This document shows, piece after piece, positions 50,224-54,963 of a stretch of 64,000 nt of DNA. This stretch comes from Nannochloropsis oceanica. Its lineage: Eukaryota; Sar; Eustigmatophyceae; Eustigmatales; Monodopsidaceae. The position numbers and the translations under genes were made by a program. The number at the start of each line of letters is the position of its first letter. Within the stretch, counting starts at the first letter, position 1. Where the stretch lies: contig CP038126.1 of NCBI GenBank assembly GCA_004519485.1, forward strand, positions 372,001 to 436,000, in the 5' to 3' direction. The notes under the pieces were generated by a model that was not told where the DNA came from, did not search any database, and saw only the letters and a list, made by a program, of their open reading frames with translations.

Positions 50224-51641
50224 TAGTAGCAAGACCGATCACGGCAAGGAAACGGCCATGTACTGTCCTTTTCTCCTCCTTCTCCTTCGCCTCCTTCTCC
50301 TTCTCCTCCTTTTCCTCCTTCTCCTCCTTCGCTATCTTCTCCTCCTCTTGTTCCTCCTTCTCCTCCTCCTCTTCTTCCTCCACCCGGATCCCTCTCACTC
50401 TCTTCTCCCCCTCCCTCTCCTGCCCCCTCGAACGACCCACACCTGTCCTCGTTCTACCTCCCGAGACCAAACGGAGAAAAGGCAGCAGCATGACCACAGC
50501 AGTCACTACTGGTGCCAGCGCCTCTTCCTTCCTCCAACCCTCCCTCCCTCCCTCTTCCTCCTTCGCCTCCTCCTCCTCCTCCCCCTCGTCGGAAATGGAA
50601 TGGGCGCCGCTGGTGGATTTTTTCACTGAGCGAGGAGTGACCGTCGGGTGAGTGCAAGGATGGAGGGAGGGAGTGAGAGGAGGGAGAAAATGGGAGGAAA
50701 GTGGGTAGGAGAGAAGGGAGAAGGAGGGAGAGAGGGAGGATGGCAAACACCCTGTGATTGAACAACTTCTCATCGCGCTTCCTCCCTTCCTTCCCCCATT
50801 TCTCCCTTCCTCGTCCCTCCCTCCTCACACCAGCTTCATCTCCGGGATCCACCGCGATTGCTCCTCTCTGTCGCTCGCTGACTATGAGGGACGGCTCGTC
50901 GCAGCTGTGAAGGATCTTGCCACCCCCAGCCCTGTTGTCATCGCGTTGTCGCCCTTGATGGTATGGCAGGGAGGGAGGCCGGGAGGGAGGCAGGGAGGAA
51001 GATTTGCTCTATTTTTGATCCTTGTTTCAGCACCACAATTACATCCTAGCCCCTCCGACTTGTATATCCTCCCCCCCCTTTCCCTCCGTCACTCCCTCTC
51101 TTCCTCCTTTCCTTCCCTCCTTCCCTGCCTCCCTAAGAGCTTTGTCGCTCAAAAGTACCTGGAGTCTCACGCTGCTGCCGGTGTTGTCCTCCTCGACCCC
51201 CTTCCTCCCTCCCCCTCCTCCCCCTCCTCCTCCTCCGGCAGCGCTCTTCAACGATACTCTCGATGGGTACGGACGGAGGGAGGGGAGGAGGACGGGGAGG
51301 AGGACGGGGACGACGGTGAATTTCCTTGGCAGGCGATGAAGGAGGCAGGGAGGGAGGGAGGGGACGTGAAGCTGGAGAGCGGAATCATGGACTGGCTCGT
51401 GCTTCTAAGTGGAGAACCGCCAAGCGGAGGAGGAAGGGAGGAAGGGATGGACGGGGCGCATCCGTTTTTGACGAGGGAGGACGTTCAGGCCTTGATTGAG
51501 ATGCATGGAATGGATGGGAAGGAGAATGTGAAGGTGTTGAGGGAGAGAGGGAGGGAGGGAGGAATGGAGGAGGGGCCGGAGCGGCAGGCGGTGGAGGAGA
51601 TGGCGGGTCTGGTGTATGGATGGTACGATGATCGATTTTGA
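50109..51641 (+). CDS. Degenerate alpha/beta-hydrolase-like protein
   Basis: Three exons, 50109-50647, 50834-50960 and 51138-51641, give 389 residues if translation starts at 50109; Met at about 50490 is an alternative. The N-terminal 130 residues are mostly poly-Ala and Ser/Phe/Leu runs from CAG and CTC repeats and may not be real coding. The conserved part reads WAPLVDFFTERGVTVGFIS, SLADYEGRLVAAVKDL, PVVIALSPLM, SFVAQKYLESH and AAGVVLLDPLPP. This follows the strand-helix order of alpha/beta hydrolases, where the nucleophile elbow GHSxGG should precede VxQKYLE. Here that place reads ALSPLMS, so the elbow glycines are absent and activity is doubtful. Glu/Gly-rich inserts fill the C-terminal half. 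The splice joins are in phase and the join SPLM/SFVAQ recreates the family order. Confidence 0.55.
50177..50229. repeat. (CAG)n triplet run
   Basis: About 17 CAG-type triplets, encoding poly-Ala in the frame of the hydrolase-like gene. Confidence 0.85.
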
Positions 51642-51882
51642 GCATTGTAATGTTTGAGTATCGGAGTATATATCTAGATGGATGGATGGATGGATGGATG
51701 GATGGATGTATATACTACAATAACATGAACGGTACGATGATCGATTTAGAGCGTCGTAATGTTTGAGTATTGGAGTATATATCTAGATGGATGGATGGAT
51801 GGATGGATGGATGGATGTATATACTACAATAACATGAACGGTACGATGATCGATTTAGAGCGTCGTAATGTTTGAGTATTGG
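51622..51882. repeat. Tandem repeat with 109-bp period covering the end of the hydrolase-like gene
   Basis: Units begin at 51622, 51731 and 51840, each starting GGTACGATGATCGATTT; the third is cut short at about 51882. The first unit includes the last codons and stop of the hydrolase-like gene, so the gene's end was the seed of the duplication. Each full unit carries an internal (GGAT)n run (about 51677-51707 and 51786-51816). The second and third units agree better with each other than with the first. Confidence 0.9.
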
Positions 51883-52391
51883 AGAGGGAAGATAAGCTTT
51901 TCAGTCCATGGAGACGTTGCATAGTGAGAGAGAGAGCTTTAAGGCCCACGATGACTTGGGATTGATAAAGGAGTTGATGAGGCAGATATTGATGAGGGGG
52001 GTTTGCAATCATGACAAAGAAGTTATGTCTATGCCTGTGTATATCTTTGTATGACAGACAAGGCGGAAACAGAAAACGAGCCGTAGAATCCATTAAGAAA
52101 GAGAACACGGCAACCTATTTCCCTTCTCTTTCTCTCCCCTCTCCATGCCTTCCTGTATCATCTTTCCTTCTTTATCCGTCGTTGATCATTCGATTGATTT
52201 GATTAATTTCGCACGTATGTACAGGCGGTGTATACAGGGGTCTCTCTTGTCTCTCGTCTCCGGTCCTCTCCTTCTCCCCTTCTCCCCTCTCCCTCTTTGT
52301 CCATTCCTAAACTAACTCTGATTTGATTAGATGGCTGTCAATCTCGATCTGACTCTGATTAGATTTTCATTTTTTTTTAATCTGACTCTGA
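51883..52391. other. Convergent 3' region
   Basis: Between the 109-bp repeat and the stop of the ING-SGF29 gene. The phrase CTGACTCTGATTAGAT occurs at about 52350 and 52382, a short local duplication. No gene seen. Confidence 0.4.
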
Positions 52392-54963
52392 TTAGATGGC
52401 TTTGAAGATGTGTTGCACCGGCACCCACCGGATCGGCGTGAAGCCCGTCTCGTCCGCATCGTCCTGCATGGATATGGGAGTGAGGGAGGGGGGTTAGGTG
52501 TGTGTGGGTCTAGGTGTGTGGGTGTAGAATTATTGCTACATCCCCACCTGGACCTGGTGCGTGTGCCATGGCGGTGCTGCGAATAAGTCTGACTCCCGCC
52601 CGCCCTCCCTCCCTCCCTCCATCTTCCTAGGATGGAAAGCAGTTGCTTGTCCCTCCCTCCCTCCCTCCCTCCCTCCCTCCCTCCCTCCCTCCCTCCCTCC
52701 CTCCCTCCCTCCCTCCCTACCTGGAACTGCACTGCCAGTTTGGGCACGTCCTGTCCTGGCCCGCCATGACCCACCCCGCGACGAGGAGGCTGCGCAATGG
52801 TGCCTAGGGAGGGAGGGACGGACGGCGGGAGGGAGGGAGGGACGGAAAAGATAAGTTGGAGATTTTCGATTCCTTCTGTTACGAAGAGGCTACGCAATAA
52901 TGTCGAGGAATAGTGCTGAGGAAGCGGCGAAGGAAGGAAACGAGGGAGGGAGGGAGGAAGGGAGGGACGGAGGGTGGGTGGGATGTCCCAGAATGACCCC
53001 GCAGCAACTCTTCCTCCTTTCCTCCCTCCCCCCCTCCCTCCCTCCGTCCCGCCCTCCCTCCCGCCCTCCCCTCCCGCCCTCCCTCTTACCCAGATAGAAG
53101 GAGGTGGTTTCCGGGTATACTGCGAAAACCTCGTCGCCTTTTTGGTACTTGAGCCGCTGGGCTTCGGAGCCGGGGTTGAGGAGAACCACCTGGGAGGGAG
53201 GGAGGGAGGGAGGGAGGGAGGGAGGGAGGGAGGGATGGGTCGTGGAAGTCGGGGTGGAGGAAGACCACCAGAAGCGGAGGGAGGGAGGGAGGGAGGGAGG
53301 GAGGGAGGGAGGGAGGGAGGGAAGGAGGGAGGGGGGGAGGGAGGGGGGTTTACTTACCTGCGTCTCGGGTAGAGTGTACACGCGTAGGTCGTCGTCCACG
53401 TCGACCACCTCGTACGATCCGCTCTCGCCCCTGTACGCCGCCACCTTCCCCAGCACGAAATGAGTCTCGTAGACATTTTGCTTGAAGGCCACGGAGTCGC
53501 CCTGGAGAGGGAGGGAGGGGGGGAGGGGGGGGGGGGAGAAAGTGTGGAGGGAGGGAGAAAGTGTCAAGGAAGGGAGGGAGGGAGGGAGGGAGGGAGGGAG
53601 GGAGGGAGGGAGGAAGGGAGAAAGGGAGGAAGGGAGGGAGGGAGGGCGGTACCTTGCGGGCACCGAGGAAGTCATATTCCCCCGTTTCTCTGAGCTCGGT
53701 TTGAAAATTCCCCATGTCCACCTTGAGCAGCCGCATGTGCTGGTCTATCATCTCTGAGATCTGAGGGAGGGAGGTGGCACAATCACGAAACGATGAGAAG
53801 GGAAGGTGGTCAGAGTGTGCCGCCTCCCTCCCTCCCTCCCTCCCTCCCTCCCTCCCTCCCTCCCTCCCTCCCTCCCCACCTGATTGGCCACATCGACCTT
53901 CTCCCGCTGCTTGGTCATGATCAGCGCCCGCAGGTTAGCGATATCCTCCTAGAAGGAGGAAGGGAGGGAGGGAGGGAGGGAGGGAGGGAGGGAGGGAAGG
54001 GGGGGGGGAAGGTGAGCAGTTGTACACGCATATGTCCTCTCCTCTTCTTTCCTTCTCTCGCGCCCTTAACCCCTTATCCTGTTGCATCTTAAGCATTTCA
54101 TTACGGTGCGACTCCTTCCTCCCTCCCTCCTTCCCTCCCTCCTTCCCTCCTTCCCTCCCTCCCCCCTTCCCTCCCTCCCTCCCTCACTCCCTCCACCCTG
54201 CGTACCGTGGCCTGCTTGTCCTCTATTATCTTCAGTCGCTCCTCCGGGTTTGTTTCTTTGACACCGTGCAGCTTCTTCTTCGATTGGCTCAGGTACCGCC
54301 TTTCCATGTCCGAGAGGCGGCTGGGAGGGAAGAAAGGCGGGAGGGAGGGAGGGAAGGGAAAAGGGAGGGATGGAGAGAGTGAGGACCGAGGCGTCAGAAA
54401 TATACTTTGCAGGGCTGGGTTGTAGAGAAGAGTCTGCTAGAGAGGTCGTTGAAACAAATGGAGAAGGATCAGATATTTGAATAAAAAGGAAGCAGAAAGC
54501 AATGGCCTACCCTTTCGTTGCCTCTCCCTCCTTCCCTCCCTCTCTCCCTCACGCCCGCCCACCCGTCCGCCCTTCTCATACATGTGTAGCTCCGTGGAGT
54601 CTTTGTCGAGCTCTCGCATCAGATGGAATGAGCGCTGGATGTCATTCGGCAATGGCTGGAGGCGCTCCAAGAAATCCTTGGTGTGATGAAAGGGAGGAAG
54701 GGACGGAAGGAGGGAGGGAGGGAGGGTCAATGATTAGGGGGGAGCCAGACCTTGAGCGCAGGCACACTCTAAACAGATCATGGCGGACGAAGTTGACAGG
54801 CAGCTATGAGTATGACACAGATATATGTACACGCAGACACACACGGCACGACCCAAACAATTTCCGTCGCATTATCATCGCCACCATCATAATCATCAGC
54901 CCTCCTTCCTCTCCCTACCTCGAGATAAGTCCCACTCTCCTCATGGTGCTTCGAATACGCCAT
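52392..54963 (-). CDS. ING N-terminal domain fused to SGF29 tandem-Tudor domain
   Basis: Nine minus-strand exons (54919-54963, 54582-54676, 54206-54320, 53880-53948, 53653-53760, 53358-53501, 53090-53189, 52721-52803, 52392-52463), all in phase, give 276 residues. Residues 1 to about 135 follow the inhibitor-of-growth (ING) N-terminal domain: YLEDFLERLQPLPNDIQRSF, HLMRELDKDSTELHIRL, then helices ending EMIDQHMRLLKVDMGNFQTEL, as in ING YLDSLESLPLELQRNFTLMRDLD. From about residue 145 it is SGF29-like: GDSVAFKQNVYETHFVLGKV, SYEVVDVDDD, EVFAVYPETTSFYLGTI, LAVQFQDD and PIRWVPVQHIF. SGF29 is the SAGA/ADA subunit that binds H3K4me2/3. The acidic patch and the YPxTTxFY aromatic cage are present. The PHD finger that normally ends ING proteins is absent. 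A chromatin-reader role in a histone acetyltransferase complex is inferred. Confidence 0.83.
52651..52719. repeat. (CCCT)n tract in last intron of the ING-SGF29 gene
   Basis: About 17 perfect units ending at the exon edge; in the transcript it begins right after GT as GTAGGGAGGG. Confidence 0.9.
53199..53330. repeat. Two long (GGGA)n tracts in ING-SGF29 intron 6
   Basis: Tracts at about 53192-53236 and 53279-53330 are separated by ordinary sequence. In the transcript they read as C/T. Confidence 0.85.

Follow-up and report, generated by a model that had tools for sequence, protein, structure and literature searches.

A predicted chromatin protein of Nannochloropsis oceanica that combines an ING domain with an SGF29-type tandem Tudor

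The window, a stretch of 64,000 nucleotides of the Nannochloropsis oceanica genome, carries on its minus strand a gene of nine exons whose predicted product joins an N-terminal ING domain to a C-terminal SGF29-type tandem Tudor. We consider it probable (about 60%) that this product is an intact nuclear hybrid chromatin subunit, whose ING domain docks in a MYST or Sin3 complex and whose Tudor half reads H3K4me2/3. The fusion is read from the sequence itself, binding of the mark is deduced from conserved residues, and it is from the presence of the ING domain only that membership of a complex is proposed.

Gene model and domains

The spliced coding sequence of 831 bases encodes 276 residues and runs from 54963 to 52392 of the window on the minus strand. 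All eight introns have GT-AG borders and lengths between 119 and 286 bases, one codon frame is kept throughout, and the 276 codons of the nine exons contain neither a stop nor a frameshift. The features of the gene are as follows.

54919..54963, minus strand: exon 1, residues 1-15, with the start codon at 54963 and the beginning of the ING motif (YLE); donor GTAGGG (splice model)
54582..54676, minus strand: exon 2, ING helix 1 (DFLERLQPLPNDIQRSFHLMRELDKDS); PF12998 on this exon alone gives 22.7 bits, just below the cut-off of 23.9
54206..54320, minus strand: exon 3, middle of the ING domain (splice model and Pfam)
53880..53948, minus strand: exon 4, start of ING helix 2 (splice model and Pfam)
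53653..53760, minus strand: exon 5, end of the ING domain (residue 126) and linker (splice model and Pfam)
53502..53652, minus strand: intron 5, 151 bases, phase 0, between the two halves; rich in (CCCT)n, no in-frame stops
53358..53501, minus strand: exon 6, first SGF29 Tudor, with D178 and D180 at places 2 and 4 of the DDID of solved SGF29
53090..53189, minus strand: exon 7, second SGF29 Tudor, with cage residues Y217 and Y224; PF07039 on this exon alone gives 28.8 bits
52721..52803, minus strand: exon 8, continuation of the second Tudor, with cage residue F252 (splice model and Pfam)
52392..52463, minus strand: exon 9, end of the Tudor, with D254 and the stop codon (splice model and Pfam)
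52376..52381, minus strand: ATTAAA, a polyadenylation-like word just 3' of the stop codon, putative signal

The ATTAAA is the sole match of four polyadenylation-like words on the minus strand between 52001 and 55000. The original prediction of nine in-phase exons joining an ING domain to an SGF29 Tudor is borne out by this splice model, with its eight GT-AG introns and single frame. The predicted absence of a PHD from a compact single gene agrees with the Pfam scan of the 276 residues, which with a limit of E 1 lists no PHD family. The sole two further families at this threshold, CDC73_N and DUF6127, are each below their own cut-off.

Several of the introns between 52464 and 54918 carry long GGGA/CCCT runs, which are responsible for spurious open frames on both strands of this interval. 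A tandem repeat with (GGAT)n tracts lies at 51640-51880 of the window. Upstream of it, an open frame on the plus strand (50709-51641) matches no Pfam family at E 0.001. Four pieces of the flanking plus-strand open frames likewise matched no Pfam family at E 0.001, and an NCBIfam scan of two proteins returned no family.

The ING domain (PF12998) covers residues 13-126 of the spliced protein with 47.4 bits (E 3.1e-12, cut-off 23.9) and spans positions 1-101 of the 102 of the Pfam profile. An ING3/4/5 model scores 50.7 bits on residues 1-144, compared to 9.9 bits for the best among 1000 shuffles. Matches to solved structures are found for ING4 (6.8e-9), ING5 (1.1e-8) and also ING3, and the YLE..L...LP and KV..A stretches of this half align to all three. 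ING4 and ING5 belong to the acetyltransferase class, and by score (38.5, 37.8 and 36.6 bits for ING4/ING5 against 27.2 bits for ING3) the ING half appears to lean slightly towards that class. The complex of the window protein cannot be named from this comparison, since the identities to ING4 (32%), ING5 (33%) and ING3 (31%) are nearly equal and the solved chains listed include no N-terminal domain of ING1 or ING2 to compare with.

The SGF29_Tudor domain (PF07039) starts 17 residues after the end of the ING domain and covers residues 144-270 with 73.8 bits (E 1.7e-20, Pfam cut-off 23.8), spanning positions 1-126 of the 132 of the profile. Both domains therefore score far above their cut-offs, and neither is rejected by the profile searches which the original prediction had proposed as a check. 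The Tudor half matches solved SGF29 (2.2e-8; several entries) and the structure of yeast Sgf29 weakly (0.073, or 0.0068 with a two-Tudor profile). In human SGF29, D194 and D196 form the acidic pocket for H3 alanine 1. In the alignment with solved SGF29, residues D178 and D180 of the window protein fall on places 2 and 4 of its DDID stretch, and these counterparts may likewise hold H3 alanine 1. Y217 and Y224 are aligned to two tyrosines, 7 apart, in solved SGF29. F252-x-D254 has the spacing of F264-x-D266, an equivalence seen by the F-x-D motif alone because the printed alignment ends before it. The excerpted text of an earlier report on human SGF29 gives Y238, Y245, F264 and D266 as the cage and describes a negatively charged pocket for H3A1 (PMC4589357). 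As judged from alignment and motif, the residues of the H3K4me2/3 cage (two tyrosines, a phenylalanine and an aspartate) are retained in the Tudor half, which should thus be able to recognize an H3 tail with methylated lysine 4.

Related genes in the genome

The genome (29,264,788 bases in 32 contigs) was searched exon by exon. PF12998 identified, apart from the window, one other gene, located on contig C8; the same search gave below-cut-off matches in two of 14 control genomes. With one intron spliced out, this gene on C8 encodes an ING-PHD protein. Its ING domain scores 37.1 bits with the best stretch at profile positions 52-102, and the first half is visible in the alignment. Its PHD is closest to the PHD of ING4 (4.5e-23) and reaches 22.6 bits with the Pfam PHD model, just below the cut-off of 24. 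When the ING half of the window protein was used as query against the genome at E up to 10, its own exons, a weak place on C1 (0.08) and no third ING were found. This query says little on further INGs because it missed the ING of C8 as well.

The original prediction held that the lineage had swapped one H3K4me3 reader for another on an ING scaffold. A Tudor graft on an ING domain with its cage kept is indeed what we find; however, since the same genome retains an ING-PHD gene, there has been no simple swap of readers and the PHD has not been replaced genome-wide.

Three places exceed the cut-off in the PF07039 search, namely the window, a gene on C14 and a gene on C3. The C14 gene (L001:658-2307) is a single uninterrupted open reading frame of 549 residues in which a SAP30_Sin3_bdg domain (residues 167-215, 41.5 bits) is followed by an SGF29_Tudor domain (residues 282-410, 85.5 bits), and it is the sole SAP30 match in the genome at E up to 10. 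Its Tudor is 43-45% identical to that of the window protein and has a phenylalanine at the position of the first cage tyrosine. In both proteins an SGF29-type tandem Tudor comes after a domain which binds a scaffold, and they differ in that the scaffold part of the C14 protein is a SAP30 Sin3-binding domain and its frame is uninterrupted. Long low-complexity stretches are present in the C14 frame, together with a forkhead-like stretch below cut-off near its end. With the window Tudor as protein query, at E up to 10, the genome yields the gene's own exons and C14 only. The grafting of this Tudor is therefore not a one-off, as the SAP30 protein of the same genome carries the same type.

The C3 gene (L002:1-1881) was rejected as an SGF29. 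It passes the SGF29_Tudor cut-off (34.9/31.7 bits) but is matched much more strongly by Tudor_5 (64.6 bits), and its Tudor domains are near Tudor_5 and PTM_DIR17_Tudor. Leaving C3 out, both SGF29-type Tudors found in the genome form part of fusions with scaffold domains. The exon-by-exon search, which recovered the window's own split Tudor, detected no free SGF29; a gene with divergent, finely split exons could escape it. Separate ING-PHD and SGF29 genes had been proposed as a further check in the organism's own genome, and of these the former was found and the latter was not.

Candidate complexes and alternative readings

In known complexes the ING domain engages a scaffold subunit through a coiled coil. 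In the window protein the N-terminal helical ING domain would be the docking part, and the C-terminal tandem Tudor would be the reader, recognizing lysine-4 methylation on the H3 tail and so taking the job normally done by the PHD finger in ING proteins. Its most likely homes would be the complex of the one MYST acetyltransferase and EPL1 and that of the Sin3 deacetylase. In yeast Rpd3L, as described in excerpts of one report, a coiled coil with Rxt2 places the ING subunit Pho23 in the scaffold, and the H3K4me3-binding PHD of Pho23 sits on a flexible tether (PMC10224958). By analogy, a change of reader need not disturb assembly, because the PHD of Pho23 hangs on its tether and docking is separate.

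Genes for both candidate homes are present. The genome search identified one MYST acetyltransferase gene with a Tudor-knot, one Sin3 gene and one EPL1-like gene (26.5 bits in the genome search, 23.3 bits against a cut-off of 25.4 in the Pfam scan). Components of a GCN5 module are present as well. GCN5 is located on C8, where a bromodomain (70.3 bits) lies beside a GNAT piece (29.9 bits) and more GCN5-like stretches can be seen by eye. A candidate ADA2 on C7 is marked by three adjacent exon matches, scoring 24.5, 22.3 and 17.3 bits, each below the cut-off of 27. Of four pieces of this locus that were scanned, one matched the ADA2 model at 22.6 bits and the other three matched no family, and ZZ-, SANT- and SWIRM-like stretches were recognized by eye. 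The ADA2 model also has a below-cut-off match in one control, E. coli, and a SWIRM search gave no match, either here or in the control genomes. The predicted C7 product is probably ADA2. An Ada3 candidate (17.9 bits, sub-threshold, at one place) was not listed in a Pfam scan of 1070 residues of its frame and was not counted. This frame, of 1780 residues on the minus strand of locus L011 (C11:203500-212500), also has a PHD finger and another stretch resembling a zinc finger near the Ada3-like one; its product could be a divergent Ada3 with PHD fingers, or the likeness could be due to chance.

The presence of GCN5 and a probable ADA2 together with no detected free SGF29 favours a different reading, in which the window protein is the SGF29 of this lineage, that is, the H3K4me reader of the GCN5-ADA2 module, its N-terminal coiled coil having been replaced by an ING domain, or an ING domain having been gained. 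In line with this reading, PF07039 marks three places in all, of which C3 is fitted better by another Tudor model and the other two are the window and the fusion with SAP30. Nevertheless, we regard such an SGF29 as rather unlikely, though it is the main alternative. SGF29 has an N-terminal coiled coil which binds Ada3, whereas the N-terminal half of the window protein is clearly ING by profile and its solved-structure matches are to ING proteins and not to SGF29; Ada3, the usual partner, has only the sub-threshold match mentioned above. The SAP30 fusion also means that this type of Tudor is not tied to SAGA in this genome. A link of the window protein to SAGA, as had been suggested in the original prediction, is unproven, and the genome points at least equally to the Sin3 deacetylase side, as the one other clear SGF29-type Tudor found is fused to SAP30.

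Two further readings question the fusion or its function. It is very unlikely that an adjacent ING-fragment gene and SGF29-fragment gene have been wrongly merged by the gene model. Intron 5, which joins the halves, is a simple repeat and may as such conceal errors of the assembly or the model, but its borders are GT-AG, its length falls inside the 119-286 span of the seven other introns and none of four polyadenylation-like words occurs in it. If exon 5 is read on through intron 5, the first stop is at 53352, a few bases beyond the end of exon 6, and such a read-through would cross all of exon 6 in a different frame. In the frame of exon 6, after the last upstream stop, the sole in-frame ATG lies at 53675, within exon 5 and in another frame. 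With intron 5 free of stops and this sole ATG, two separate genes would need to overlap in different frames, and this argues strongly that the ING and SGF29 Tudor domains belong to one gene. Scans of prokaryote and viral contigs gave 15 and 5 pattern matches, respectively, for the whole protein and 196 and 164 for the two-Tudor alignment, none of which was confirmed as a relative. This lack of confirmed relatives could be taken to favour a recent or decaying fusion without function. We give such a fusion hardly any credence, since the codons are intact, the cage residues appear to be retained and both domains are near full length. The hybrid subunit which docks by its ING domain and reads H3K4me2/3 by its Tudor is hence the reading we prefer.

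Known readers and the meaning of the fusion

ING proteins carry a C-terminal PHD finger which reads H3K4me3, and SGF29 reads the same mark through Tudor domains in SAGA/ADA. With the ING family (human ING1-5 and yeast Yng1, Yng2 and Pho23) the window protein shares a near-full-length N-terminal ING domain, but it has a tandem Tudor where these proteins have a PHD. With SGF29 of the SAGA/ATAC acetyltransferase module it shares the tandem Tudor and its predicted cage of Tyr, Tyr, Phe and Asp. The constituent parts are all known; their combination appears to be new. The literature matches listed include no report of an ING-SGF29 or SAP30-SGF29 fusion. In the excerpted portion of a Holozoa Tudor-gene table SGF29 is given without a further domain (PMC12147562), and part of a review of protozoan parasites describes SGF29-like Tudors of Giardia and Trichomonas as of unknown function (PMC8638923). 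The main text of a cross-kingdom SAGA review contains no mention of fusion, alga, protist or stramenopile (PMC8194025). A study of histone marks in N. oceanica mapped H3K27ac, H3K36me2 and Kcr, and H3K4me has no occurrence in its text (PMC10436460); that this alga methylates H3K4 is an assumption of the present reading.

A comparable exchange of H3K4me2/3 readers between Tudor and PHD types is found in the GCN5 module of Plasmodium falciparum with its PHD1, where, according to excerpts of two sources, a PHD protein instead of SGF29 reads H3K4me2/3 (PMC7145593; PMC8396726). The direction there is opposite, as the PHD replaces the SGF29 Tudor, and the exchange is made via a separate subunit, whereas the window protein is a fusion. 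It is possible, though we put it forward tentatively and as somewhat improbable, that SGF29 was lost as a separate SAGA subunit and its Tudor duplicated into the ING and SAP30 scaffolds, so that one type of reader would guide acetyltransferase and deacetylase alike to a shared set of promoters. If true, this would mirror the situation in Plasmodium, in which the task of SGF29 has passed to a PHD protein.

Readers of H3K4me3 are usually seen as fixed, with the PHD belonging to ING proteins and the tandem Tudor to SGF29. Since the SGF29 reader is present here on two scaffold subunits and is not seen as a free SGF29, it behaves as an exchangeable plug-in. This suggests that the lineage has rearranged the means by which its histone-modifying complexes locate active genes. 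N. oceanica is an oil-rich alga used in genetic work, in which it may be asked whether targeting follows the mark or the type of reader, PHD or Tudor.
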